64,000 bases of DNA from NCBI RefSeq assembly GCF_030247195.1, contig NC_080672.1, forward strand, positions 346,764,413 through 346,828,412, given 5' to 3'. Under the pieces are notes generated by a model that saw only the letters and a list, made by a program, of their open reading frames with translations, did not search any database and was not told where the DNA came from. Within the stretch, counting starts at the first letter, position 1. Each line of letters opens with the position of its first letter. Origin of the DNA: Topomyia yanbarensis. Its lineage: Eukaryota > Arthropoda > Insecta > Diptera > Culicidae. Of this stretch, positions 19,868-64,000 are shown one piece after another. The translations under genes were made by a program, and so were the position numbers.

Positions 19868-20310
19868 ATGTACAGTAGGGTGGGGCAAAATGATCGTTTT
19901 TTCAGCACAGCACTTTTTTGGTTTCTTTTGGGGTCCCAAACAACTGTGCAAAATTTGGGGTCGATTGGTGTTGACCCGGCGTAGCGCATTGCGTTTGAAA
20001 TTTGTATGGAGATTAGTATGGGAAAACCTATATTTTTGCATTTTTAATTCTACAGACTACAATTCTTCCTTTAGTATGCAAACAAATAGATAGAAGTGTA
20101 GTCCAGGATATGCTGAACAACTTTGCCGAACGATGTATGGTGTTAGAATGTCTCTAAGCCATGTTATAGCTGTTCAAAGTTCGATACATCGAATTAAATG
20201 CCAAAAATCATTTTTATTGCCAACACTGCGGGCGTACCAATGGTATTTCATGTAGCATTCCAAAGTAGCATTATATATTTTAGTTTTACCACATTGATAT
20301 CAAGTTTTGT

Positions 20311-20420
20311 TTTTTTGTGTTTCGAATTCATCTCGTCAGTAACTAGCACCATCTGGGTGTCTAGTTAGACGATGTATCTAAATTAGTACCCAAATTAGCA
20401 CTAGTTAGACACAAAAAAAT
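20311..20420 (-). ncRNA. Hammerhead ribozyme (diverged copy, minus strand)
   Basis: The same core read on the minus strand. On plus it appears as TTTCGAATTCATCTCGTCAG followed by TAACTAGC, with the GTC site shown as GAC within TTAGACAC near 20410. Stems I and III are both complementary. Confidence 0.75.
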
Positions 20421-20762
20421 CCAAACAGTTCACACGACATATGTGAACGCCTAAAGCCACATGTCCCGAGTGATGTCCCGGGAAGCAAATGTAGCTCTGG
20501 TTTGCTGACGAGAAAGCGAAGACGAACTCTTGTCTTTTGGTTCAAGAACCCAAACGCCTGGTATTATGCAATAAAAATTGGACTAAACCGTTTTGCGCGT
20601 TAAGGGCACAAGACCTAATTTTAATCAAGTTTTGTTTTTTTGTGTTTCGAATTCATCTCGTCAGTAACTAGCACCATCTGGGTGTCTAGTTAGACGATGT
20701 ATCTAAATTAGTACCCAAATGTGGCTTTAGGCGTTCACATATGTCGTGTGAACTGTTTGAAA

Positions 20763-20870
20763 TTTTTTGTGTCTAATTAGTGCTAATTTGGGTACTAATT
20801 TAGATACATCGTCTAACTAGACACCCAGATGGTGCTAGTTACTGACGAGATGAATTCGAAACACAAAAAA
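20763..20870 (+). ncRNA. Hammerhead ribozyme (diverged copy)
   Basis: Core elements are CTGACGA at 20842-20848, GAAA at 20858-20861 and cleavage triplet GTC at 20771-20773. Stem III pairs TTTTTTGTGT with ACACAAAAAA. Stem I pairs TAATTAG (after the GTC) with CTAGTTA. The same position in the large array is TAACTAG, so the C-to-T change turns a G-C pair into a G-U pair and keeps the stem. Stem II is only a 9-nt segment, GATGAATTC. Confidence 0.8.
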
Positions 20871-22133
20871 ACAAAACTTGATTAAAATTAGGTCTTGTGC
20901 CCTTAACGCGCAAAACGGTTTAGTCCAATTTTTATTGCATAACACATTGATATGTTTGGATGAATTATTCAAAAGTCTTAGCTCAATTTCATGAGCGTAG
21001 GTAGTTGAGCAATAGGGCGTAGTGAGGGGGGATGGCGAGGGGGAGGATTTAATATGTAGAAATTCGAACTGAAATGTTGTCAAGTTGGAATGTTCAGATG
21101 AATTATTTCAAAAAAAATACACACATAATAGTAACGATGAAATAAAACATACTGTATCCCTTTGCCTTGACTTTTATCAATAGAAGTTACGTTGCAGATT
21201 GAATCAACTGATTATTTACGCATTATGATTTGATAGCATGCTCATTTCTATGCTGTTCGATCACGAGGCGTGAAGCTAATTTCTGGATTTCAACATGAAA
21301 TCCACCAGATCCCTACAACAATTTTTGCTTCAGGTGATCTAACAGCATCGAAATGAGCATCCCATCAATCATAGTGCCTATTAAACTGAAACATAATCAA
21401 TGCAATCCTCTGACATATCAACTCGACATCAATTGATTCAGTCTGTAACGTAACTTCTATTGATAAAAGTCAAGGCAAAGGGATACAGTATGTTTTATTT
21501 CATCGTTACTATTATGTGTGTATTTTTTTTGAAATAATTCATCTGAACATTCCAACTCGACAACATTTCAGTTAGAATTTCTACATATTAAAGCCCCCCC
21601 CCCCCTCACTACGCCCCATTGCTCAACTACCTACGCTCATGAAATTGAGCTAAGGCTTTTGAATAATTCATCCAAACATATCAGTGTGGTAAAACTAAAA
21701 TATATAATGTTATTTTGGAATGATATATGAAATACCATTAGTACACCGGCAGTGTTGGCAATAAAAATGATTTTTGGCATTTAATTCGATGTATCGAATT
21801 TTGAACAGCTATAACATGGCTTAGAGACATTCTAACACCATACATCCTTCGGCAAAGTTGTTCAGCATTTCCTGGACTATACTTCTATCTATTTGTTGGT
21901 ACACTACAGGAAGAATTGTAGTCTGTAGAATTAAAAATGCAAAAATATAGGTTTTCCCATACTAATCTCCATACAAATTTCAATAGCAATGCGCTACGCC
22001 GGGTCAACACAAATCGACCCCAAATTTTGCACAGTTGATTTGGACCGCAAAAGGAACCAAAAAAGTGCTGTGCTCGGTTGATGTGGCTATGATTACATTT
22101 TTCCATATAACAATGCCCCACCCTAATGTACAG

Positions 22134-24846: not shown

Positions 24847-26633
24847 GCAGTGTTTTTTAGAAAACATAAATTAAAGAGGCTTAAGAGCGGAACAAAATCC
24901 TTGTATCAATATAAGAGAAACTCACGGTCAATGTGTGCTTCCCGCGATGCAAAGGTACACAGTGGAAATTAATTTGTTATTGATTTCTATGTTAAGGGGG
25001 TAACCTCATCAGTCAGCTTCAAAAAATCGATTTTTTTTTCTTTGCTTCAATCGTTAGACCTGTTATCTGAGAATATTCTTTTAAAGTTTCAGGATATAGC
25101 TGACTAACATTTTATGCCTTTGAATTTTCTATAATTTAATTTTTTTCTTCTAAATGCTTTAAAGTCCATTTTATGAAAACCATGTTTTTCAAAACTCCGT
25201 GCATTGTTAAAAAACTACAACATCTGTTGTGTGACTTTCTGGATTATAGTGTCTAACTGGTACCAATTTGATGCTTGTTTAGACTTATCCAACTAGCATT
25301 CAGTAGGTGTTAGTTACTGACGAGGATAATACGAAACACTACAAAATCAAACTTTTAGTCCAGATAAAATTTGTTCAGCAGTTTGGAAAAAAAACTTCGT
25401 ACGATGTTATATTAGCATAGTCAGGTGGTAAATATAAAGAAGAACAAACATGCATTTCACATGCAATGTTCGATTTACCCCCAAACATGTTCTTATTCCT
25501 GAAACTTAACTGTGGCAAGAATTCCTGAGCCGAAACTACTATAAGAACTCCTCCACCGGACTTCTTTTGAGATTCGTGAAGATTTCGGTCATCTTTGAAT
25601 GCCTTAAAACCACTGCCGAAAATCTCTTAACTTTTGACGCTATCATTCCAACTAGTTTCATTTTCTAAGATATCTAGAAATAGTGAACCTGCTACACGTT
25701 TATGAATTTTTACCTTTTTTTACTTTTCTTCCAATTATGCGAACAAGTATTCGAAAGTTTTTCATCATTATTTCAATCTTGAAAACACTGTACGCTCGTT
25801 TTTTTCTTCTTTCGACGGAAAGCGTCGAAACGATCGAAGACACGAATGTTGAAATCGGGATGCTTCATACAGTGATAATGATGGTGAACATTCTGAACTG
25901 ACAGTACCGGGTGCGGCACTCAAAGTGTAACCAACTTCAGACCGTTCGCGCAGCTGTCGCACACTGGTATCAGCTGTCTATAAATTGGTTCAATTGCAGT
26001 TCAGAGTATTGTTTACAAGTGTACAAAAGCTTTTTGCACAAAGTGAACCCATAAAAAATGGATCGCTGATGGAATCTAAAAATATATAGTAGGATTGCTT
26101 TATATTTAACTGGAAAATCACAACCTCAAACACCTTAGTCTTAATAAAGTTTTTGTTTATCACACTATACTGGGACTAGTGGGATACTGAAGCTTAAGTT
26201 TTCTAACTATAATGTATGCATTGTTTGTTGTAGTTTAGAATTTCAACCAAATGTAATATACTTTATTATTAGTTCGAATAGCAAAAATTTCGCATGAATT
26301 CATTAAATTTAATTTTTCCGGTGCATAAGCAAATATTAATGGATCGTTTTACTTTTTCCCTTCTTATCGATCGTTTTGTAAATATCCATGAACTATAATT
26401 TAACGTTCGATATATGAATCAATACATAGCATTTCTAATGTTCATTTGTACATCTTCTATGGACCAAGAAAAATTATTTAGCAAACATTTTCATCAAATT
26501 TATGGTACTTTTTCTAACATTTTATTGCTCCATTTTGTAATACCGTGGAACATTTTTGTCGATATTATGGAACATATCGACGTGTTTTAAAAGCATTTAA
26601 TTGTTAATATTCTATGGATCAATGTCAGTTAAT
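24847..26633 (+). repeat. Unclassified repeat A, copy 1 (carries a hammerhead)
   Basis: It starts GCAGTGTTTTTTAGAAAAC and ends CAATGTCAGTTAAT. It is matched along most of its length by 29252-30888 with scattered substitutions and indels. This copy carries about 118 bp (about 25274-25392) absent from copy 2, which include the 3' half of a hammerhead ribozyme. The open frame near 25683-25901 is conserved in both copies but has no motif I recognise; conservation may reflect recent duplication only. The right edge abuts exactly the 5' UTR of the LINE fragment. Confidence 0.8.
25247..25341 (+). ncRNA. Hammerhead ribozyme remnant, third family member
   Basis: Cleavage triplet GTC at 25251-25253, CTGACGA at 25317-25323 and GAAA at 25333-25336. 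Stem III has six pairs (25247-25252 with 25336-25341). Stem I pairs TAACT (25254-25258) with AGTTA (25312-25316) plus two G-U pairs. The 9-nt stem II segment (GGATAATAC) pairs weakly, so activity is doubtful. The sequence between the core parts is clearly related to the 325-bp unit. Confidence 0.65.
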
Positions 26634-26935: not shown

Positions 26936-28214
26936 ATGGCCGAGGGCGAAATACCATCTGATGTAATCATGGAAGTCCCTGATCCCCCTAATACTCGCAT
27001 TGCTCCCCGTATAAAGCAGTACCCAGAAGGTTCCTCTGGTCCATGGGTGGTATATTTTCGGACCGGAGAGAAACCGGTTAATATATTAAAACTTTCTCGA
27101 GATCTGACTGCTAATTACCCGGCCATAACTCAGATAACACGTGTTCGGGCAAACAAGATACGTGTTCTAGTGAATGATCTCGGCCAGGCAAACGCGATTG
27201 CTTGCTGTGAGCGCTTTACGCGGGAATTTAAAGCGTACGTGCCTTGTGTGGCCTGTGAAATCGATGGGGTAGTGTCCGAACCGGGCCTGAAATGCGAAGA
27301 ACTGTTGGAGCACGGGGTTGGCTGCTTTAAGGACCCCTCACTTGAACAGATTAAGATCTTGGAATGCAAACAATTGTATACCGCAAACACCGAGGGAGGT
27401 AAGACTACCTACTCTCTATCAGGCTCGATTCGGTGACATTCGCCGGGTCATCTCTTCCCAACTACATCCTCCTTGACAAGGTTCGCCTACCAGTTCGCCT
27501 GCCACATATTGTGGAAATAAGAAACGATGCGGCGAAGGAGAGCATGAGGATGACTCTTGCGACAAAGAAACTAAAAAGTGTATTTGCTGCGGGGGCCCTT
27601 CACATGCTCTTAAATCATGTCCTGCGTACAAGCAGCGCGGGGATAAAATTAAGCGCTCCCTTAAGGAACGCTCAAGGCGTTCTTATGCAGAAATGCTAAA
27701 GAATGCTTCGCCATCTGTCCTGTCCGAAAATCCCTATGCTGGTTTGGCTAACGTTGAGCAAGAATCTGACGACCCACGAGAGGGAACATCTTTGGTTAAC
27801 CCAGGGGAATCCAGGAAGAGGAGAAATCCAGCCTCCCCTACATTGCCTCGTAAGGGTGCCAAGGTGTCGTCCACTCAGAGTGCGCCATCTACAACCAATA
27901 AATCCAACGGAAGTGATGCACAAAAGCCGAAGCAATTTGCTCCAGGACTTGGAAATATTAATTCTAACAAGGAGTACCCACCACTTCCAGGGACATCCAA
28001 AACCCCAAGTGTCCCCTTTTTTCAAACAGATACTCAGTCCAGTAGCGGACTAATGAAATTTTCTGACATAGTGGACTTAATTTTCACAGCTTTCAATGTT
28101 ACTGATCCTCTTAAAAGCCTTCTGATACGTTTTCTCCCTATAGTGCAAACATTTTTGAAGCAGTTGACTACTAAATGGCCCCTCCTTGCAGCGATCGTAT
28201 CCTTCGATGGCTAA
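26936..28214 (+). pseudogene. LINE ORF1 (nucleic-acid-binding gag-like), frameshifted
   Basis: The frame begins at 26936 and runs to 27436 with an RNA-binding region (GPWVVYFRTGEKPVNILKL, then KIRVLVNDL and KILECKQLY). It then shifts: VTFAGSSLPN continues in the frame of 27433, and from about 27530 the frame of 27693-28214 takes over. A CCHC zinc knuckle (CICCGGPSHALKSC, 27579-27620) is readable only in that third frame. A first knuckle expected before it is missing, so a deletion is likely. The C-terminal part is Ser/Pro rich. The product would bind element RNA. It cannot be made as one protein. Confidence 0.8.
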
Positions 28215-29251
28215 GTCATCGAACGAGGTCACCGATTCAATCACTGTTCTACAGTGGAACAGCAGAAGTATCCTCCCGAAAATCGATTCCTTTAAATTTT
28301 TACTAAATAGTTTAAAATGTGATGCTTTCGCATTATGTGAAACTTGGTTAACTTCCGATATAAATCTCAACTTCCACGACTTTAATATAATTCGTCTGGA
28401 TCGAGAAAACCCCTATGGAGGAGTACTTTTGGGGATCAAAAAGTGCTATTCTTTCAACCGAATTAACCTCCCTTCAACACCAGGCATTGAAATTGTCGCT
28501 TGTCAAGTTCTAATCAAAGGTAAAGACCTTTGCATTGCTTCCATCTACATTCCTCCTAGAGCCTCGGTAGGGCACCGAACGCTTTGTAATATCACGGAAT
28601 CCTTACCGGCACCGCGGCTAGTTCTGGGAGACTTTAACTCGCACGGTACGGTATGGGGCTGTCTTCATGATGATAATAGATCAACATTAATCCAAGATCT
28701 TTGCGATAATTTCAACATGACCATCTTAAACACGGGAGAAATGACGCGGATTCCTACACCACCAGCACGCGCAAGCGCGTTGGATTTGTCGCTTTGCTCG
28801 ACATCGCTACAGTTAGATTGCATGTGGAAGGTGATCCCTGATCCCCACGGTAGCGATCATTTGCCTATCGTGATTTCAATTGCTAACGGTTCAAGACCAT
28901 CGGAAACAATCAATGTATCGTATGACCTCACACGGAACATTGATTGGAAGAGTTACGCGACCGCGATATCCGTTAAAATCGAATCCACTCAAGAACTTCC
29001 TCCGTAGGAAGAGTACAAGTTTTTGGCTGGCTTGATTCTCGACAGTGCGAATCAAGCTCAGACTAAACCAGTACCCAACGCGAATACCCATGGACGGTCT
29101 CCCACCCTGTGGTGGGATAAAGAGTGCTCAGAGCTGTACGCGGAAAAGTCCACTGCATATAAGGCCTTCCGGGAAGACGGGTTACCCGCTAGCTATCAAC
29201 AGTACGCGTCGTTAGAAAGGCGAATGAAGAGTCTAATGAAAGCCAAAAAAC
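28207..29251 (+). pseudogene. LINE ORF2 endonuclease, stop codon and truncation
   Basis: ORF2 starts at ATG 28207, overlapping the ORF1 stop in ATGGCTAA. It encodes an apurinic-type (exonuclease-endonuclease-phosphatase) domain: QWNSRSI near the start, catalytic ETWL, GDFNSHG and SDHLPI, in the right order over about 220 residues. A TAG at 29005-29007 interrupts the frame, which reopens in phase to 29251. No reverse transcriptase motif follows. This domain nicks target DNA in the intact element. The copy is inactive. Confidence 0.85.
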
Positions 29252-30888
29252 GCAGTGTTTTTTTAGGAAACATAAATTGAAGAGGCTAGAGTCAAACAAA
29301 ATATTTGGATCAATATGTGAGAAACTCACGGCCAATGTGTGCTTCCCACGATGCAAAGGTACACAGTGGCAATTAATTTGTTGTTGATGTCTATGTTAGG
29401 GGGGTAACCTCATCAGTCAGCTTCAAAAAATCGATTTTTTCTTTGCTTCAATCGTTAGACCTGTTATATGAGAATATTCTTTCAAAGTTTCAGAATATGG
29501 CTGACTAACATTTCATGCCTTTGAATTTTCTATAATTTAATTTTTTTTCTTCTAAATGCTTTAAAGTCCATTTTATGAAAACCATGTTTTTCAAAACTCC
29601 GTGCATTGTTAAAAAACTACAACATCTGTTGTGTGACTTTCTGGATTATAGTGTCTAACTGGTACCAATTTGATGCTTCGTAACTTCGTACGATGTTATA
29701 TTAGCATAGTCAGGTGGTAAATATAAAGAGGAACAAACATGCATTTCACATGCAATGTTCGATTTACCCCCAAACATGTTCTTATTCCTGAAACTTAACT
29801 GTGGCAAGAATTCCTGAGCCGAAACTACTATAAGAACTCCTCCACCGGACTTCTTTTGAGATTCGTGAAGATTTCGGTCATCTTTGAATGCCTTAAAACC
29901 ACTGCCGAAAATCTCTTAACTTTTGACGCTATCATTCCAACTAGTTTCATTTTCTAAGATATCTAGAAATAGTGAACCTGCTACACGTTTATGAATTTTT
30001 ACCTTTTTTTACTTTTCTTCCAATTATGCGAACAAGTATTCGAAAGTTTTTCATCATTATTTCAATCTTGAAAACACTGTACGCTCGCTTTTTTCTTCTT
30101 TCGACAGAAAGCGTCGAAACGATCGAAGACACGAATGTTGAAATCGGCATGTTTCATACAGTGATAATGATGGTGAACTGACAGTACAGGGTGCGGCACT
30201 CGAAGTGTAATCAACTTCAGACCGTTCGCGCAGCTGTCGCACTTGTATTAGCTGTCTATAAATTGGTTCAATGGCAGTTCAGAGTATTGTTTACAAGTGT
30301 ACAAAAGCTTTTTGCACTAAGTGAACCCATAAAAACGGATCGCTGATGGAATTCAAAAATATATAATAGGATTGCTTTATATTTAACTGGAAAATCACAA
30401 CCTTAGTCTTAATAAAGTTTTTGTTTATCACACTATGACTAGTGGGATACGGAAGCTTAAGTTTTCTAACTATAATGTATGCATTGTTTGTTGTAGTTTG
30501 GAATTTCAACCAAATGTAATATACTTTATTATTAGTTCGAATAGCAAAAATTTTGCATGAATTTATTGAATTTAATTTTTCTGGTGCATGGATATTAATG
30601 TATCGTTTTACATTTTCTCTTCTTATCGATCGTTTTGTAAATATCCATGAACTATAATTTAACGTTCGATATATGAATCAATACATAGCATTTCTAATGT
30701 TCATTTTTACATCTTCTATGGATCAAGAAAAATTATTTAGCAAACATTTTCATAAAATTTATGGAACTTTTTCTAACACTTTATTGCTCCATTTTGTAAT
30801 ACCGTGGAACATTTTTGTCGATATTATGGAACATATCGACGTGTTTTAATGTACATTGTTATTATTCTATGGATCAATGTCAGTTAAT
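29252..30888 (+). repeat. Unclassified repeat A, copy 2
   Basis: Second copy of 24847-26633. It lacks the segment equivalent to 25274-25392, so its hammerhead is broken: the GTC half remains at about 29650 but CTGACGA and GAAA are gone. Downstream of 30888 it continues into TTATGG-rich DNA, whereas copy 1 is cut at the matching base by the LINE. Confidence 0.8.
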
Positions 30889-53168: not shown

Positions 53169-55936
53169 TACCGTAAACCGGGGTGACATTTATCACTTTT
53201 CGAAGTAATCATTACATATTTTTAGACGCAACATATTTTTTTCAAGTTTCATATTTTTAAACCATGTACTGATGTATGGAGAACAAGATTGGATGGTTAT
53301 ACCTAAAATTGTCCGCTTACAGCTATATTTTCAAAAATAATTTCAAGTTGAAGCCCGTGTTCGTATTCCGGGGTGACTTGATAACCCACATTAAGTTGTT
53401 GATGTCAATGTTTTTCATTCAAATGTTTGTCTAAACTAATTCTGGAAAGATACTCATTATTAAATAGATATTAATTGGTATTATAAAAAGTATTTCAATG
53501 TACTGTACAATTCGAGTAATAAAAATTCTTATAATTTGTGTCGAACTAAAATAAAATTTTCTGAAAACCTTTAAAACTGCTAAAATGGTTTTATTTCAGT
53601 ACTTTATCAATGTACAAAAAGATTCATCTATTTTAACACGTCGGAATATTGAACAATAAAAAAAATGTGCGAATTTTAGCTTAAAATAATTTTAAATAAT
53701 TGTCAACTAGTTTCACAAAAAAAATATTTAAAATAAACAAACTCTTGAAACGAAATGTGCCACATCCCAATCTAAAGGAAAATAAAAATGCTTGTAATTT
53801 ATTACTCTTGCTCAAATCTGAGATTTATTTAATTAAGTTTTGTTTTTTTTTTTGTGTTTCGAATTCATCTCGTCAGTAACTAGCACCATCTGGGTGTCTA
53901 GTTAGACGATGTATATAAACTAGTACCCAAATTAGCACTAGTTAGACACAAAAAATTCCAAACAGTTCACACGACATATGTGAACGCCTAAAGCCACATG
54001 TCCCGAGTGATGTCCCGGGAAGCAAATATAGCTCTGGTTTGCTGACGAGAAAGCGAAGACGAACTCTTGTCTTTTGGTTAAAGAAACCAAACGCCTGGTA
54101 TTATGCAATAAAAATTGGACTAAACCGTTTTGCGCGTTAAGGGCACAAGACCTAATTTTAATTAAGTTTTGTTTTTTTGTGTTTCGAATTCATCTCGTCA
54201 GTAACTAGCACCATCTGGGTGTCTAGTTAGACGATGTATATAAACTAGTACCCAAATTAGCACTAGTTAGACACAAAAAATTCCAAACAGTTCACACGAC
54301 ATATGTGAACGCCTAAAGCCACATGTCCCGAGTGATGTCCCGGGAAGCAAATATAGCTCTGGTTTGCTGACGAGAAAGCGAAGACGAACTCTTGTCTTTT
54401 GGTTAAAGAAACCAAACGCCTGGTATTATGCAATAAAAATTGGACTAAACCGTTTTGCGCGTTAAGGGCACAAGACCTAATTTTAATTAAGTTTTGTTTT
54501 TTTGTGTTTCGAATTCATCTCGTCAGTAACTAGCACCATCTGGGTGTCTAGTTAGACGATGTATATAAACTAGTACCCAAATTAGCACTAGTTAGACACA
54601 AAAAATTCCAAACAGTTCACACGACATATGTGAACGCCTAAAGCCACATGTCCCGAGTGATGTCCCGGGAAGCAAATATAGCTCTGGTTTGCTGACGAGA
54701 AAGCGAAGACGAACTCTTGTCTTTTGGTTAAAGAAACCAAACGCCTGGTATTATGCAATAAAAATTGGACTAAACCGTTTTGCGCGTTAAGGGCACAAGA
54801 CCTAATTTTAATTAAGTTTTGTTTTTTTGTGTTTCGAATTCATCTCGTCAGTAACTAGCACCATCTGGGTGTCTAGTTAGACGATGTATATAAACTAGTA
54901 CCCAAATTAGCACTAGTTAGACACAAAAAATTCCAAACAGTTCACACGACATATGTGAACGCCTAAAGCCACATGTCCCGAGTGATGTCCCGGGAAGCAA
55001 ATATAGCTCTGGTTTGCTGACGAGAAAGCGAAGACGAACTCTTGTCTTTTGGTTAAAGAAACCAAACGCCTGGTATTATGCAATAAAAATTGGACTAAAC
55101 CGTTTTGCGCGTTAAGGGCACAAGACCTAATTTTAATTAAGTTTTGTTTTTTTGTGTTTCGAATTCATCTCGTCAGTAACTAGCACCATCTGGGTGTCTA
55201 GTTAGACGATGTATATAAACTAGTACCCAAATTAGCACTAGTTAGACACAAAAAATTCCAAACAGTTCACACGACATATGTGAACGCCTAAAGCCACATG
55301 TCCCGAGTGATGTCCCGGGAAGCAAATATAGCTCTGGTTTGCTGACGAGAAAGCGAAGACGAACTCTTATCTTTTGGTTAAAGAAACCAAACGCCTGGTA
55401 TTATGCAATAAAAATTGGACTAAACCGTTTTGCGCGTTAAGGGCACAAGACCTAATTTTAATTAAGTTTTGTTTTTTTGTGTTTCGAATTCATCTCGTCA
55501 GTAACTAGCACCATCTGGGTGTCTAGTTAGACGATGTATATAAACTAGTACCCAAATTAGCACTAGTTAGACACAAAAAATTCCAAACAGTTCACACGAC
55601 ATATGTGAACGCCTAAAGCCACATGTCCCGAGTGATGTCCCGGGAAGCAAATATAGCTCTGGTTTGCTGACGAGAAAGCGAAGACGAACTCTTGTCTTTT
55701 GGTTAAAGAAACCAAACGCCTGGTATTATGCAATAAAAATTGGACTAAACCGTTTTGCGCGTTAAGGGCACAAGACCTAATTTTAATTAAGTTTTGTTTT
55801 TTTGTGTTTCGAATTCATCTCGTCAGTAACTAGCACCATCTGGGTGTCTAGTTAGACGATGTATATAAACTAGTACCCAAATTAGCACTAGTTAGACACA
55901 AAAAATTCCAAACAGTTCACACGACATATGTGAACG

Positions 55937-55984
55937 TAGCTCTGGTTTGCTGACGTTCGCTTTCTCGTCAGCAAACCAGAGCTA
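55937..55984. repeat. Inversion junction hairpin of the array
   Basis: TAGCTCTGGTTTGCTGACG (55937-55955) and its exact reverse complement (55966-55984) flank a 10-nt loop. This is where minus-oriented units meet plus-oriented units. The last minus-oriented unit jumps from GTGAACG straight to TAGCTC, so part of a unit is lost there. Confidence 0.85.
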
Positions 55985-56057
55985 TATTTGCTTCCCGGGA
56001 CATCACTCGGGACATGTGGCTTTAGGCGTTCACATATGTCGTGTGAACTGTTTGGAA

Positions 56058-56165
56058 TTTTTTGTGTCTAACTAGTGCTAATTTGGGTACTAGTTTATAT
56101 ACATCGTCTAACTAGACAGCCAGATGGTGCTAGTTACTGACGAGATGAATTCGAAACACAAAAAA
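56058..56165 (+). ncRNA. Hammerhead ribozyme (representative unit)
   Basis: Core: cleavage triplet GTC with the cut expected after C56068, CTGACGA at 56137-56143, GAAA at 56153-56156. Stem III pairs TTTTTTGTGT (56058-56067) with ACACAAAAAA (56156-56165), 10 pairs. Stem I pairs TAACTAG (56069-56075) with CTAGTTA (56130-56136). The stem I loop folds further: ATTTGGGT with ACCCAGAT, and CTAGTT with AACTAG, giving a rod; this particular unit has a C-to-G change at 56119 within that extension. Stem II is only the 9-nt GATGAATTC (two clear pairs), a reservation about activity. With stem III open it is type III in form. The same core repeats in all 21 units. Confidence 0.88.
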
Positions 56166-59100
56166 ACAAAACTTAATTAAAATTAGGTCTTGTGCCCTTA
56201 ACGCGCAAAACGGTTTAGTCCAATTTTTATTGCATAATACCAGGCGTTTGGTTTCTTTAACCAAAAGACAAGAGTTCGTCTTCGCTTTCTCGTCAGCAAA
56301 CCAGAGCTATATTTGCTTCCCGGGACATCACTCGGGACATGTGGCTTTAGGCGTTCACATATGTCGTGTGAACTGTTTGGAATTTTTTGTGTCTAACTAG
56401 TGCTAATTTGGGTACTAGTTTATATACATCGTCTAACTAGACACCCAGATGGTGCTAGTTACTGACGAGATGAATTCGAAACACAAAAAAACAAAACTTA
56501 ATTAAAATTAGGTCTTGTGCCCTTAACGCGCAAAACGGTTTAGTCCAATTTTTATTGCATAATACCAGGCGTTTGGTTTCTTTAACCAAAAGACAAGAGT
56601 TCGTCTTCGCTTTCTCGTCAGCAAACCAGAGCTATATTTGCTTCCCGGGACATCACTCGGGACATGTGGCTTTAGGCGTTCACATATGTCGTGTGAACTG
56701 TTTGGAATTTTTTGTGTCTAACTAGTGCTAATTTGGGTACTAGTTTATATACATCGTCTAACTAGACACCCAGATGGTGCTAGTTACTGACGAGATGAAT
56801 TCGAAACACAAAAAAACAAAACTTAATTAAAATTAGGTCTTGTGCCCTTAACGCGCAAAACGGTTTAGTCCAATTTTTATTGCATAATACCAGGCGTTTG
56901 GTTTCTTTAACCAAAAGACAAGAGTTCGTCTTCGCTTTCTCGTCAGCAAACCAGAGCTATATTTGCTTCCCGGGACATCACTCGGGACATGTGGCTTTAG
57001 GCGTTCACATATGTCGTGTGAACTGTTTGGAATTTTTTGTGTCTAACTAGTGCTAATTTGGGTACTAGTTTATATACATCGTCTAACTAGACACCCAGAT
57101 GGTGCTAGTTACTGACGAGATGAATTCGAAACACAAAAAAAAACAAAACTTAATTAAAATTAGGTCTTGTGCCCTTAACGCGCAAAACGGTTTAGTCCAA
57201 TTTTTATTGCATAATACCAGGCGTTTGGTTTCTTTAACCAAAAGACAAGAGTTCGTCTTCGCTTTCTCGTCAGCAAACCAGAGCTATATTTGCTTCCCGG
57301 GACATCACTCGGGACATGTGGCTTTAGGCGTTCACATATGTCGTGTGAACTGTTTGGAATTTTTTGTGTCTAACTAGTGCTAATTTGGGTACTAGTTTAT
57401 ATACATCGTCTAACTAGACACCCAGATGGTGCTAGTTACTGACGAGATGAATTCGAAACACAAAAAAACAAAACTTAATTAAAATTAGGTCTTGTGCCCT
57501 TAACGCGCAAAACGGTTTAGTCCAATTTTTATTGCATAATACCAGGCGTTTGGTTTCTTTAACCAAAAGACAAGAGTTCGTCTTCGCTTTCTCGTCAGCA
57601 AACCAGAGCTATATTTGCTTCCCGGGACATCACTCGGGACATGTGGCTTTAGGCGTTCACATATGTCGTGTGAACTGTTTGGAATTTTTTGTGTCTAACT
57701 AGTGCTAATTTGGGTACTAGTTTATATACATCGTCTAACTAGACACCCAGATGGTGCTAGTTACTGACGAGATGAATTCGAAACACAAAAAAACAAAACT
57801 TAATTAAAATTAGGTCTTGTGCCCTTAACGCGCAAAACGGTTTAGTCCAATTTTTATTGCATAATACCAGGCGTTTGGTTTCTTTAACCAAAAGACAAGA
57901 GTTCGTCTTCGCTTTCTCGTCAGCAAACCAGAGCTATATTTGCTTCCCGGGACATCACTCGGGACATGTGGCTTTAGGCGTTCACATATGTCGTGTGAAC
58001 TGTTTGGAATTTTTTGTGTCTAACTAGTGCTAATTTGGGTACTAGTTTATATACATCGTCTAACTAGACACCCAGATGGTGCTAGTTACTGACGAGATGA
58101 ATTCGAAACACAAAAAAACAAAACTTAATTAAAATTAGGTCTTGTGCCCTTAACGCGCAAAACGGTTTAGTCCAATTTTTATTGCATAATACCAGGCGTT
58201 TGGTTTCTTTAACCAAAAGACAAGAGTTCGTCTTCGCTTTCTCGTCAGCAAACCAGAGCTATATTTGCTTCCCGGGACATCACTCGGGACATGTGGCTTT
58301 AGGCGTTCACATATGTCGTGTGAACTGTTTGGAATTTTTTGTGTCTAACTAGTGCTAATTTGGGTACTAGTTTATATACATCGTCTAACTAGACAGCCAG
58401 ATGGTGCTAGTTACTGACGAGATGAATTCGAAACACAAAAAAACAAAACTTAATTAAAATTAGGTCTTGTGCCCTTAACGCGCAAAACGGTTTAGTCCAA
58501 TTTTTATTGCATAATACCAGGCGTTTGGTTTCTTTAACCAAAAGACAAGAGTTCGTCTTCGCTTTCTCGTCAGCAAACCAGAGCTATATTTGCTTCCCGG
58601 GACATCACTCGGGACATGTGGCTTTAGGCGTTCACATATGTCGTGTGAACTGTTTGGAATTTTTTGTGTCTAACTAGTGCTAATTTGGGTACTAGTTTAT
58701 ATACATCGTCTAACTAGACACCCAGATGGTGCTAGTTACTGACGAGATGAATTCGAAACACAAAAAAACAAAACTTAATTAAAATTAGGTCTTGTGCCCT
58801 TAACGCGCAAAACGGTTTAGTCCAATTTTTATTGCATAATACCAGGCGTTTGGTTTCTTTAACCAAAAGACAAGAGTTCGTCTTCGCTTTCTCGTCAGCA
58901 AACCAGAGCTATATTTGCTTCCCGGGACATCACTCGGGACATGTGGCTTTAGGCGTTCACATATGTCGTGTGAACTGTTTGGAATTTTTTGTGTCTAACT
59001 AGTGCTAATTTGGGTACTAGTTTATATACATCGTCTAACTAGACACCCAGATGGTGCTAGTTACTGACGAGATGAATTCGAAACACAAAAAAACAAAACT

Positions 59101-60475
59101 TAATTAAAATTAGGTCTTGTGCCCTTAACGCGCAAAACGGTTTAGTCCAATTTTTATTGCATAATACCAGGCGTTTGGTTTCTTTAACCAAAAGACAAGA
59201 GTTCGTCTTCGCTTTCTCGTCAGCAAACCAGAGCTATATTTGCTTCCCGGGACATCACTCGGGACATGTGGCTTTAGGCGTTCACATATGTCGTGTGAAC
59301 TGTTTGGAATTTTTTGTGTCTAACTAGTGCTAATTTGGGTACTAGTTTATATACATCGTCTAACTAGACACCCAGATGGTGCTAGTTACTGACGAGATGA
59401 ATTCGAAACACAAAAAAAAACAAAACTTAATTAAAATTAGGTCTTGTGCCCTTAACGCGCAAAACGGTTTAGTCCAATTTTTATTGCATAATACCAGGCG
59501 TTTGGTTTCTTTAACCAAAAGACAAGAGTTCGTCTTCGCTTTCTCGTCAGCAAACCAGAGCTATATTTGCTTCCCGGGACATCACTCGGGACATGTGGCT
59601 TTAGGCGTTCACATATGTCGTGTGAACTGTTTGGAATTTTTTGTGTCTAACTAGTGCTAATTTGGGTACTAGTTTATATACATCGTCTAACTAGACACCC
59701 AGATGGTGCTAGTTACTGACGAGATGAATTCGAAACACAAAAAAACAAAACTTAATTAAAATTAGGTCTTGTGCCCTTAACGCGCAAAACGGTTTAGTCC
59801 AATTTTTATTGCATAATACCAGGCGTTTGGTTTCTTTAACCAAAAGACAAGAGTTCGTCTTCGCTTTCTCGTCAGCAAACCAGAGCTATATTTGCTTCCC
59901 GGGACATCACTCGGGACATGTGGCTTTAGGCGTTCACATATGTCGTGTGAACTGTTTGGAATTTTTTGTGTCTAACTAGTGCTAATTTGGGTACTAGTTT
60001 ATATACATCGTCTAACTAGACACCCAGATGGTGCTAGTTACTGACGAGATGAATTCGAAACACAAAAAAACAAAACTTAATTAAAATTAGGTCTTGTGCC
60101 CTTAACGCGCAAAACGGTTTAGTCCAATTTTTATTGCATAATACCAGGCGTTTGGTTTCTTTAACCAAAAGACAAGAGTTCGTCTTCGCTTTCTCGTCAG
60201 CAAACCAGAGCTATATTTGCTTCCCGGGACATCACTCGGGACATGTGGCTTTAGGCGTTCACATATGTCGTGTGAACTGTTTGGAATTTTTTGTGTCTAA
60301 CTAGTGCTAATTTGGGTACTAGTTTATATACATCGTCTAACTAGACACCCAGATGGTGCTAGTTACTGACGAGATGAATTCGAAACACAAAAAAACAAAA
60401 CTTAATTAAAATTAGGTCTTGTGCCCTTAACGCGCAAAACGGTTTAGTCCAATTTTTATTGCATGAGATTTATTT

Positions 60476-61002: not shown

Positions 61003-61045
61003 TTAACAAAAGCACTGTTTTGAGCGACTTAGTGGAATGTTATAT

Positions 61046-61360
61046 TAAACACTTTAAACCGTTGTCTTCCGTTTTAATTCCACTATGATGAACAAAATGC
61101 AAAATTGCACTTTTCTGTTACAGATACGTATTTCGGCTACGACTTGCAGCCTTCTTCAGTGTATTGTATCAGAATGAAGAAAATACCCTCTGTACCGCTT
61201 TATGTACCGAAAAGGCAGGTAGAAATTAGGTAACTTAGGTGTGTGAAGATGATCATTTGCGTACGGGTAATGTTTGGAAAAGCCATGTGTATCCGTTACC
61301 TTGATCTCGATTGAGTAAAGACGAAGGGGGTTGTTTAAAAATTTCTAGGCTCTCAGCAAC
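61046..61360 (-). repeat. Penelope arm 1 (sense 3' end)
   Basis: Reverse complement of 62919-63233. It includes the end of the endonuclease frame and the hammerhead at 61113-61174. Confidence 0.9.
61113..61174 (-). ncRNA. Type I hammerhead-like fold, Penelope arm 1
   Basis: Mirror of the fold at 63105-63166, here in the sense orientation of the element. See that entry for the pairing. Confidence 0.6.
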
Positions 61361-61800
61361 ATCCAATTTCCATGGATTAGAAGTTTGACGTTGAATTTTT
61401 ATATCCTCAGTGGTCAGATCATGTTTTTCTGAAAAGGAATGTTCCGCTACCTTAGATTTGAAGTGAAATGGTACATCTTTAACAGCTTCCTTGGAAGCTT
61501 TTGTGATTTCAGCGATGTGCTCTTTAAACCGAATATCTAGTGTTCTCTTAGTTTGTCCAATATAAATTTTATCACAATGAGAACAAGAAATTTTGTATAC
61601 CCCAGATTTTTCCAGAGTTTCAATTGGATCTTTAGTGGATCCTAAAATCGATTTAAGTTGGTACTTTCTACTACTAAAAACAAGATCCATACCAAACTTT
61701 TTTAATTTATGTCTAAGTGGATAAGCCGTATTTTTGTTGAAGTCTATTGCTATCCTTTTTAAATTCTCGGTTAATGGGGTTAATGTTGTGAGGGATTGTT
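61253..61800 (-). pseudogene. Penelope GIY-YIG endonuclease domain
   Basis: Continuous frame on the minus strand. From the Met at 61690, residues 30-34 are GVYKI and 43-47 YIGQT, with the conserved Arg/Phe/His of RFKEH (54-58), a CCHH set (C36, C39, H84, H90) and a candidate catalytic Glu in AESLEI (about 113-116). Upstream the same frame extends toward the reverse transcriptase (KNTAYPLRHKLKKFG) but is out of phase with it by one base at an A8 run (about 61816-61823). The domain cuts target DNA for insertion. Confidence 0.85.
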
Positions 61801-61811
61801 TTTTGAATTTT

Positions 61812-62918
61812 TTACTTTTTTTTATTGATTATTGATTGGATAGTTTGCTCTGGATATCCATTGAGCCTACCAATTCTGAAAATAAACTCTGTTTCTTTAA
61901 ATTTTGCGTCTTCGCTTAGTGGTAAACTAAGCATTCTATGAACCATGTGATGGAATGCTGCCATTTTATGCTGATAAGAATGGTTTGAAGTATTTGGTAT
62001 AACTCTATCTGTATTGGTAGGTTTTCTATAAATTTCAAAAGTCAAGGATTTTCCTTCTCTTATTACAAGGATATCCAAAAATGGTAATTTGTTATCTTTT
62101 TCTTCTTCATGTGTAAACTTGATATTATTATGAATGTTGTTAATAGCTTCCAATATCTTTGTTAAATTTCTCCGTTTGATAATGCAAAAAATGTCATCAA
62201 CATATCTCCACCAGCGTTCTGGCAACAAATTTTTCATCTTTAAACATTCTTCTAGGTTTGCCATGAAAAGCTCACAAAGAAAAGGAGAGAGTGGGTTACC
62301 CATAGGGGCACCCTTAGTTTGTTTATAGAAGACACCTCGGAATGTGAAATAATTTTCTTCCATGCAAAGGCGAGTAAGTTTAAGATAAGATCTCACTTTG
62401 CTTTTCCATAGACTATTGTTATTCTGTTGTAGTAACCAATCCTCTAAGAGGTTAATTGAATCCTTTACAGGGACACTTGGGAATAGGGCGGTTACATCAA
62501 AAGAGACCATTATTTCGTCATCTTTGATTTCACCTGACTTCTGAAGTTTGATTGCGAAATCTTGTGTGCTCTTAACCGAGCAACTATGGAATTGTTTGGA
62601 ATTCGTTAACCAACCATTTTGCAATTTTTTGGGTAGGGGCATTTACAGCTGAAATAATTTCCCTCATTTCATTCCCAGGTTTGTGGATTTTAGGTAGTCC
62701 CTTAATTCTAGGTAAGGCGGGATTTGAAACTTTGAGACGTGACAGGCTATCCCCTAGGACGGGTTTGCATTCTTTAAGAGTTTTATCGACACGTTTGATC
62801 ATATCAGGGAGAGGATTTATTCTTTGAATTCTATATGGCCCAGAGTTTATTTTATGTTGCATGTCAGTATCATATTGATGCTTATCCATGACTACTACTT
62901 TATTTCCCTTGTCAGTCA
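61812..62918 (-). pseudogene. Penelope reverse transcriptase domain
   Basis: Two overlapping minus-strand frames. From 62918 to about 62590: TDKGNKVVVMDKHQYD, then LPKIHKPG and the AVNAPTQKIAKWL motif. After a frameshift near 62590, residues counted from the Met at 62642 show motif A (SFDVTALFPSVP, Asp49), motif B (KGAPMGNPLSPFLCELF), the catalytic RYVDD (146-150) and LPFLDILV, then IYRKPTNTD. The N-terminus is cut at the arm junction. Catalytic motifs are intact, but the frameshift and truncation make this copy non-functional. Confidence 0.9.
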
Positions 62919-63233
62919 GTTGCTGAGAGCCTAGAAATTTTTAAACAACCCCCTTCGTCTTTACTCAATCGAGATCAAGGTAACGGATACACATGGCTTT
63001 TCCAAACATTACCCGTACGCAAATGATCATCTTCACACACCTAAGTTACCTAATTTCTACCTGCCTTTTCGGTACATAAAGCGGTACAGAGGGTATTTTC
63101 TTCATTCTGATACAATACACTGAAGAAGGCTGCAAGTCGTAGCCGAAATACGTATCTGTAACAGAAAAGTGCAATTTTGCATTTTGTTCATCATAGTGGA
63201 ATTAAAACGGAAGACAACGGTTTAAAGTGTTTA
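62919..63233 (+). repeat. Penelope arm 2 (inverted 3' end copy)
   Basis: Inverted copy of 61046-61360. On plus it re-encodes the last residues of the endonuclease (ESLEIFKQPPSSLLNRD) out of context. Confidence 0.9.
63105..63166 (+). ncRNA. Type I hammerhead-like fold, Penelope arm 2
   Basis: CTGAAGA (63120-63126), stem II GGCT/AGCC (63128-63131 with 63141-63144), GAAA (63145-63148). Stem III is the tiny palindrome ATAC/GTAT (63148-63155), with the cut expected after C63156. Stem I pairs TACA with TGTA and TTCTG with CAGAA. One extra A (63127) sits between core and stem II. Hammerheads with very short stem III are known from Penelope elements and are thought to work as dimers, so this fits, but activity is uncertain. 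Confidence 0.6.
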
Positions 63234-64000
63234 ATCAATTGTCTGATTTGAGGCCCGTCAAAAACACCAGCTTTGATTTTTTCGGCACTCAATTTCGGAA
63301 AAACAGTTTTCAAGTAAAGGAAACACTTCCCTTTCTTATTTAGAGCTTTTGTAAATTGCTTCATGAGTCCGAGTTTAATATGGAGGGGTGGAAGAATGAT
63401 TTTTCGTTTGTCAATCAAAGGTTTGTTAACAATATTATGGCTTCCTACCTCACAACTATCTCTTTTTTGGCCAAATAGTTTGACGCCAATGATTTTTCTT
63501 GTCCCTGCTATCCCACAAGCAAATAAAGCATGGATATAGCCACCCTGTTGCCCCAGAAGAAAATTAACCATTTTCAGATCTACACACACAACCCATTGAT
63601 GTTCATGATACTTAATTTTCTCCAAAGCGTAGGAAATATTAGTATACTCTTCTTTCATATTAGTAGAATGTCCTATCGGGATGCTACCAAACTTATTTCC
63701 ATTGTGTAAAAGAACACACTTCAAACTTTGTTTAGAGCTATCTATGAACAGACGCCATTCAGTTGGTTGGTACACATTTAGACCCATTTGTTCTAATAAC
63801 CCTCTTACATTAATGCAAAATACGAGATTATTCTCTTGTGGAAAAAAATTGAAGAAGTTCTTTTTCTCTGGTTCGGTAAAAGGTAACGTTGGTTCCTGAC
63901 TCGAGCATATTTCTGTCTTTTAACCTCGATGCCAATAGTTCAGCAGAAAGTTTGGAGAGCCCTAGATCTCGAATCAAGTCACTCTGATTGTAAAGTTGGG
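63234..64000 (-). pseudogene. Broken transposon-like gene, N-terminal part
   Basis: Runs off the window end. On the minus strand it reads LGLSKLSAELLASRLKDRN, then LVFCINVRGLLEQMG, PTEWRLFIDSSKQSLKCVLL, LPPLHIKLGLMKQFTKAL, FDGPQIRQLI. There is a frame break near 63835. Between about 63530 and 63470 the conserved CFICLWDSRDKKNHW lies in another frame, so the copy is decayed. This family recurs in invertebrate genomes in my memory and looks transposon-derived, but I cannot assign a superfamily. It ends at the Penelope target site. Confidence 0.7.

Follow-up and report, generated by a model that had tools for sequence, protein, structure and literature searches.

The purified protein of a Penelope-like element (PLE) from Anolis cuts and extends both strands of A+T-rich DNA. 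It starts copying at two adjacent internal RNA sites, which explains the tail seen in the genome, and its start site did not differ by strand (PMC11167929). Two fixed start sites of this kind were presented in that study as unique to PLEs. In rotifers, PLEs are inverted, mostly head-to-head, and flanked by target site duplications (TSDs) of 8 to 10 bp; self-priming was the favored explanation, and the tail of inverted PLEs is optional at one of the inverted pLTRs (PMC3846280, in part). PLEs also are strong candidates to mobilize animal retrozymes (PMC7229834, in part). Type III hammerhead ribozymes with a long helix have been reported mostly from dipteran genomes, and dipteran type III hammerheads are cited as work in preparation (PMC7936874, in part). 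The cited papers do not settle by what mechanism PLEs move, what makes the head-to-head order so frequent among them, or which enzyme mobilizes animal retrozymes.

Here, we describe an inverted array of 325-bp units, each carrying a predicted hammerhead ribozyme. The array was found in a window of 64,000 nucleotides (the window being the whole stretch of DNA that was analyzed) and belongs to a family of many young copies, the start points, stop points, and junctions of which are readable from the DNA. The array is probably one insertion of a nonautonomous retrozyme with a type III-like hammerhead, the RNA of which was copied from both target 3' ends at two positions, designated A and B.

Materials and Methods

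Positions within the unit are numbered q1 to q325 in the RNA sense, starting at the predicted cleavage site. W1 denotes the array at 53831-60463, W2 denotes a smaller copy in the window at 20301-20942, and L-numbers denote loci fetched from the genome. One unit was used as the query to search the window's own genome (1,168,131,283 bases in 1,044 contigs). Besides the array, the matches listed form 37 clusters, of which 31 were fetched (20 + 5 + 6); the 6 unfetched clusters have a single strand only among the matches listed. The array, W2, and the 31 fetched loci make up the 33 loci analyzed. L031 and L039, which are broken by later insertions, were counted as two-armed. Ends A and B were counted on the 22 TSD-bearing two-armed copies, since the left end of L040 is broken (no TSD was found there) and the right end of L059 lies outside the fetched piece.

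Variants were counted in the first 22 loci with the A run excluded; the tally of fixed, single, and intermediate changes and the distances also exclude the hairpin columns. Inner ends (n = 57) were set by base-by-base extension, which places L036, L043, and L049 outside the q1 group. The q121 end of L031 was excluded from this count, as it was made by a later insertion.

The strict type III scan was built from a cleavage UH, a 5-bp helix I, CUGANGA, GAAA, and helix III. The hammerhead core consensus and helix numbering were applied to the unit. The covariation alignment comprised 6 near-identical segments and one diverged segment.

Results

Structure of the array and of a second copy in the window

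Tandem Repeats Finder reported two adjoining arrays of period 325, at 53842-55936 (6.4 copies) and 55956-60464 (13.9 copies), each 99% matching. This bears out the 7 + 14 near-identical head-to-head units of 325 bp that a preliminary description had placed at 53831-60463. The 12-bp target duplication that it had claimed also was recovered. Because TGAGATTTATTT has exactly two exact copies in the window, starting at 53819 and 60464 and thus standing at both array ends, the duplication was set to 53819-53830 and 60464-60475 and the insert to 53831-60463 (Table 1). The left arm has its RNA sense on the - strand and the right arm on the + strand; therefore, the RNA 3' ends point outward. The tandem plan of the array has no separate internal region, and the GC content of the unit is 39%. 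No reading frame of at least 150 amino acids overlaps the array, and the unit has no reverse transcriptase (RT) or GIY-YIG coding.

Further inspection of the right arm revealed a 7-unit period from 56137 to 60366, in which units 2 and 9 share one change and units 5 and 12 share a 2-base A insertion. This higher-order period is not shared by the left arm, and its presence in the right arm suggests a 2.3-kb duplication or a 7-unit template.

The smaller head-to-head copy, W2 (20301-20942), was not included in the preliminary description, nor was the diverged hammerhead at 25236-25355. An inverted paralog of the W2 flanks, at 21600-22074, is without the insert and has a single 11-mer with one mismatch in it. 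Since this paralogous empty site reads straight through with one 11-mer, both W2 arms entered together. The TSD of the array and the empty site for W2 agree with the earlier claim that the array arrived as an insertion.

Table 1. Positions of the features in the window
Feature	Position	Strand	Basis or remark
Left TSD of array, TGAGATTTATTT, 12 bp	53819-53830	.	Exact-match search of window
Left arm of array, about 6.4 units, RNA sense -, outer end B at q110	53831-55936	-	
Inversion center of array	55937-55955	-	19 bases of unit sequence after jump; short palindrome with right arm
Right arm of array, about 13.9 units, RNA sense +, outer end A at q166	55956-60463	+	
Right TSD of array, TGAGATTTATTT	60464-60475	.	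Exact-match search of window
Example of predicted hammerhead segment (one of 21 in array)	57678-57802	+	Motif scan, model search, fold
Left TSD of W2, CACATTGATAT	20290-20300	.	
W2, smaller head-to-head copy, left arm -, right arm +, ends B and A	20301-20942	.	
Right TSD of W2	20943-20953	.	
Empty site, inverted paralog of W2 flanks without insert	21600-22074	-	450 identities in 475 aligned bases
Diverged single hammerhead segment, 73%	25236-25355	+	Alignment and model search
Neighboring PLE, RT and GIY-YIG domains, 317-base perfectly inverted arms, own hammerhead-like core	61044-63235	-	

The predicted hammerhead ribozyme

The strict scan identified 21 cores in the array (7 on the - strand and 14 on the + strand), 2 in W2, 1 in the diverged copy, and 0 in the window outside these three. 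In 100 resampled windows, the mean was 0.04 cores and the maximum 1. The earlier assertion that each unit has a full hammerhead core held against this background, and a model search likewise gave 21 strong matches in the array. When a 140-nt segment was folded under a hammerhead constraint, it gave a 10-bp helix III, a helix I of 12 + 7 + 6 bp, and a 2-bp helix II at -35.7 kcal/mol, whereas the unconstrained minimum of the same segment is a different fold at -42.2 kcal/mol. A stable helix II is absent, with 2 bp in the unit and none in the predicted fold of the diverged copy.

The preliminary description had proposed a covariance-model check, and this was negative: no Rfam hammerhead family matched 1,070 bases of the array up to an E value of 10, and across the whole window no Rfam family reached its gathering score; the very short helix II may be the reason. 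The core, the cleavage UH, and helices I and III are, as modeled, those of a type III hammerhead, and the predicted ribozyme is referred to here as type III-like. The type III topology is assigned because the ends open in helix III.

The diverged copy folds freely into helices I and III of the array, and its fold is not better than those of shuffled sequences (z = -0.97). In the alignment of 7 segments, 98.9% of the cells pair across 25 pairs in common columns. Two pairs change on both sides (in the diverged copy) and 6 change on one side, and one helix pair is broken in both arms of W2. The number of double-sided changes was matched by 15 of 500 shuffles, the power for covariation being low because just one sequence is diverged. 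We also noted a 1.7-kb direct repeat (24847-26633 and 29252-30888; 93 to 94% identical) that flanks endonuclease-like reading frames. The second repeat copy (29252-30888) lacks 25277-25392, and this gap cuts the diverged hammerhead inside helix I.

Two other candidates within the unit were rejected. With cleavage placed at the GUC of q38-40, the fold reached -28.8 kcal/mol, whereas the main site gives -35.7 kcal/mol. The other candidate, a ribozyme on the opposite strand at CTGACGAGAAAGCGAA (antisense of q213-228), has by eye no A15.1-U16.1 pair beside its UH site, and the strict scan found no hammerhead there; for these reasons, viroid-like processing of two polarities was dropped. One exact 23-base core pattern had 0 matches in viral contigs.

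Two-armed copies and target sites across the genome

The unit search gave at least 263 scored matches, with 40 of the 2,107 first-look candidates scored, and the copy number is a lower bound. Two arms were found at 24 of the 33 loci analyzed, a share that is overstated because 5 of the fetched loci were picked for visibly having both strands. All 24 diverge, with the - arm on the left and the + arm on the right, and no convergent copy was seen among the 33 loci. The inverted concatemer, which had been considered unusual, is therefore the usual form among the loci examined.

An exact TSD of 10 to 17 bp was present in 22 of the 23 two-armed copies with both ends testable, which is the outcome of the previously suggested search for other copies with target duplications. 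These TSDs lie at the ends or within a few bases of them. Between unit and TSD there are 1 to 14 extra bases in L042, L044, W2, L046, L048, and L061, the 14 being in L061, whose A run is longer. Randomly placed pairs gave means of 1.1 to 5.1 and maxima of 6 to 12; this control reached its ceiling of 30 in L042, L046, and W1, in which some of the pairs had landed within the array. Only one (L047) of the 9 one-armed loci has a TSD. The copies are scattered over three large contigs and have TSDs of their own.

Around 14 target sites, the A+T content is 74%, compared with 63% in 20 kb of the window. The flank ahead of the duplication is A-rich (12 of the 14 sites have A at -3) and the flank behind it T-rich (12 of the 14 have T at +4), a roughly, though not exactly, dyad-symmetric arrangement, as if one activity cut both strands.

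Each TSD-bearing two-armed copy has one outer end A and one outer end B

In all 22 TSD-bearing two-armed copies, one outer end is A (q164-169) and the other is B (q98-110), the median distance between them being 59.5 nt; no A/A or B/B copy was seen among these. By our own arithmetic, such an outcome would have a probability of about 2e-7 if the ends were independent and equally likely. End A sits at AUUUUUAUUGCA, and B lies in or just after an AC-rich stretch 3' of the hammerhead. Of the 9 one-armed copies, 5 end near A (one of them 5 nt short) and 4 near B. The one-A-one-B rule implies a separate RNA site for each target end, with both sites probably on a single RNA.

The A run at q91-97, 3' of the hammerhead, has 7 bases in some elements and about 9 to 11 in others, and it slips between units of one element.

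Variants shared between arms, and the inner ends

Fixation within an element was seen for 9 base changes, 8 of which span both arms. Examples are q30 in 21 units of W1 and q29 in 14 units of L048 and in 9 units of L043. This pattern fits the earlier suggestion that a repeated RNA template was reverse transcribed. The nonfixed changes comprise 100 single changes and 11 at intermediate frequency within an element (7 of the 11 in L042). The distance was greater within arms (0.0082) than between arms (0.0060), and it was 0.0120 between elements. Only 11 of 134 testable nonfixed variants recur in the mirror unit ±1, and so the second arm was not copied from the first. The variant pattern is best explained by a monomer-like template for each element; a homogeneous linear multimer template also would give uniform arms.

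At the 24 centers, the arms overlap by 1 to 3 bases in 19 cases, by none in 2, and by 9 in 1, and 2 centers have filler (3 and 19 bases). The overlaps, 11 of the 19 consisting of just one base, are weak evidence for microhomology.

Seven of the 57 inner ends (L032R, L035R, L045, L050L, L052R, L059L, and L059R) lie within 2 nt of q1, the predicted cleavage site. This is the densest 5-nt window for inner ends (binomial P of 2.7e-5 for the predicted site and 0.008 for any such window), and in L059 both arms start exactly at q1. Six other inner ends fall at q269-275, the 3' foot of a GC-rich hairpin. A ribozyme-made 5' end would explain the inner ends at q1, and a structural stop would explain those at q269-275. 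The pileup at the hammerhead site may be a genomic mark left by ribozyme cleavage, one that can be read without an RNA sample. Additionally, single units of L031, L043, and L044 have a 12-base deletion, q253-264, between short direct repeats of the hairpin, and this site apparently is a copying hot spot.

PLEs in the window and in the genome

The PLE at 61044-63235 is a candidate type of helper for the array. The best named relatives of its protein are from the mosquitoes Wyeomyia smithii (68% identity) and Armigeres subalbatus (69% across 61% of the query), which makes a mosquito the most likely host. PLEs are abundant in the genome (at least 143 matches, with 1,808 candidates), and among the matches listed, 9 of 9 close opposite-strand PLE pairs diverge. 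Full-length PLEs may form divergent arrays similar to the one described here. The unit gave a local score of 18 with the neighboring PLE, reached by 2 of 200 shuffles, and an E value of 0.13 with a second PLE of the genome; no clear sequence similarity of the unit to these two PLEs was found.

The neighboring PLE lies within a longer reading frame, with no flanking duplication seen by eye. Elsewhere, from 186234533 to 186247262 of contig C3, autonomous PLEs stand head-to-head, with one pair followed by four same-strand matches about 2.67 kb apart, and L062 is a nested head-to-head PLE with arms 99.8% identical.

Discussion

We propose that a 325-nt transcript would self-cleave at GUC^U and either be closed into a small circle or persist as short multimers. 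A Penelope-type reverse transcriptase/endonuclease would cut both target strands, leaving 3' overhangs of 10 to 17 nt. One target 3' end would start copying at A and the other at B, probably on one RNA, and each copy would continue around the RNA up to the point where it stalls, jumps, or runs off, which in some cases would be the 5' end made by the ribozyme. Joining of the two copies would then give the divergent array. The geometry of the duplication implies two 3' overhangs, each continued by antisense unit DNA, from which we infer that both arms are first-strand copies. Priming from both target ends best explains the inversion in the array. The self-cleavage, the circularity, and the PLE mobilization of the unit RNA are presumed from the features described above.

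More tentatively, obligate two-ended target-primed reverse transcription could be the normal integration route of the family. A dimeric enzyme would make a staggered break, A and B would each be assigned to one 3' end, and both ends would copy one ribozyme-made circle by rolling circle until a stall, a jump, or run-off at the reopened ribozyme site. Perhaps the same holds for head-to-head PLEs at large. We advance this wider scheme as a serious possibility that we do not yet favor outright.

Other routes to an inverted array have to be considered. In self-priming, the single cDNA begun at one target end would turn back on itself at its 3' end and serve as its own template, yielding a mirror second arm. 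Such a process would produce inverted arms with the short overlaps seen at 19 of 24 centers (1 to 3 nt; 11 by one), and the short palindrome at the W1 center and the 12-nt deletion in matching units of both arms of L043 are consistent with it. A mirror copy should, however, repeat its variants, and just 11 of the 134 testable ones recur in the mirror unit ±1. In W1, polymerase errors of one arm do not appear in the corresponding mirror part of the other, which refutes self-priming for that copy. Arm lengths are often very unequal (7 + 14 units in W1; 3 + 22 pieces in L042), and self-priming provides no reason for a second arm to end at A if the first began at B, as 22 of 22 do. We consider it quite improbable for this family. 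LINE-type twin priming, which involves no PLE, would have an L1- or R2-like enzyme start at the RNA 3' end, with the second target end priming at an internal position of a linear multimer. The TSD lengths and the inverted structure would fit this process too. The window contains long interspersed endonuclease genes (28168-29007), and a linear RNA whose 5' end was made by the ribozyme would be compatible with inner ends at q1. We nevertheless regard it as unlikely, as among the 22 copies no outer end coincides with a poly(A) tail or with q325, where the ribozyme would make the 3' end, and inversion is usual in this family rather than exceptional. Moreover, two fixed start sites have been described as unique to PLEs (PMC11167929).

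An ordinary satellite, or a fold-back DNA transposon with tandem terminal repeats, might have grown by unequal exchange, and the 7-unit higher-order repeat in the right arm does suggest some duplication at the DNA level. The termini, however, are not inverted copies of each other: in 22 of 22 copies, their positions within the unit differ by about 60 bases. The family is dispersed over three large contigs with its own TSDs, and W2 has a paralogous empty site. We give this explanation hardly any credence and retain priming from both target ends as the preferred account.

Head-to-head copies, TSDs, two starts, and the abundance of PLEs lead us to suggest, by analogy, that the array works like a PLE insertion; it is not a PLE itself. 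The likeness extends to TSD length (8 to 10 bp in PLEs and 10 to 17 bp here), A+T-rich targets, an extra tail at one of the two ends that matches two internal start sites, and a hammerhead beside the start sites (PMC11167929 and PMC3846280, in part). Unlike the PLEs in the portions of these papers considered here, with their tail of 30 to 40 bp, the family has an A-B spacing of about 60 nt, a different hammerhead, and a unit without a reading frame. It also follows a one-A-one-B rule, whereas the start site of the Anolis PLE showed no strand difference (PMC11167929).

With metazoan non-LTR retrozymes, the family shares tandem hammerhead units (325 bp here; 150 to 450 bp published), the absence of coding capacity, a GC content below 50% (39% here), and TSDs longer than 4 bp (10 to 17 bp here) (PMC7229834, in part). 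Published metazoan retrozymes have a type I hammerhead, whereas this family has type III topology, and the part of PMC7229834 considered here contains no mention of a divergent two-arm plan with fixed ends for them. The long-helix hammerheads of hepatitis delta virus (HDV)-like RNAs and dipteran genomes are type III with an unusually long helix I, as here; they have a 6-bp helix II and a loop pseudoknot, in contrast to the minimal helix II of the array unit (PMC7936874, in part). Plant LTR retrozymes likewise are nonautonomous, with a type III hammerhead and an RNA circle as the proposed intermediate, but they have LTRs, a PBS, a PPT, and 4-bp TSDs in place of the tandem arms and 10- to 17-bp TSDs seen here (PMC7761336, in part). 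Within the titles and abstract openings seen in the open-access journal literature, no such two-armed retrozyme is described, and no paper there joins twin priming with a hammerhead ribozyme or a retrozyme with a mosquito. What we call new, set beside these known systems, is an animal retrozyme that combines a type III-like hammerhead with a two-armed integration rule.
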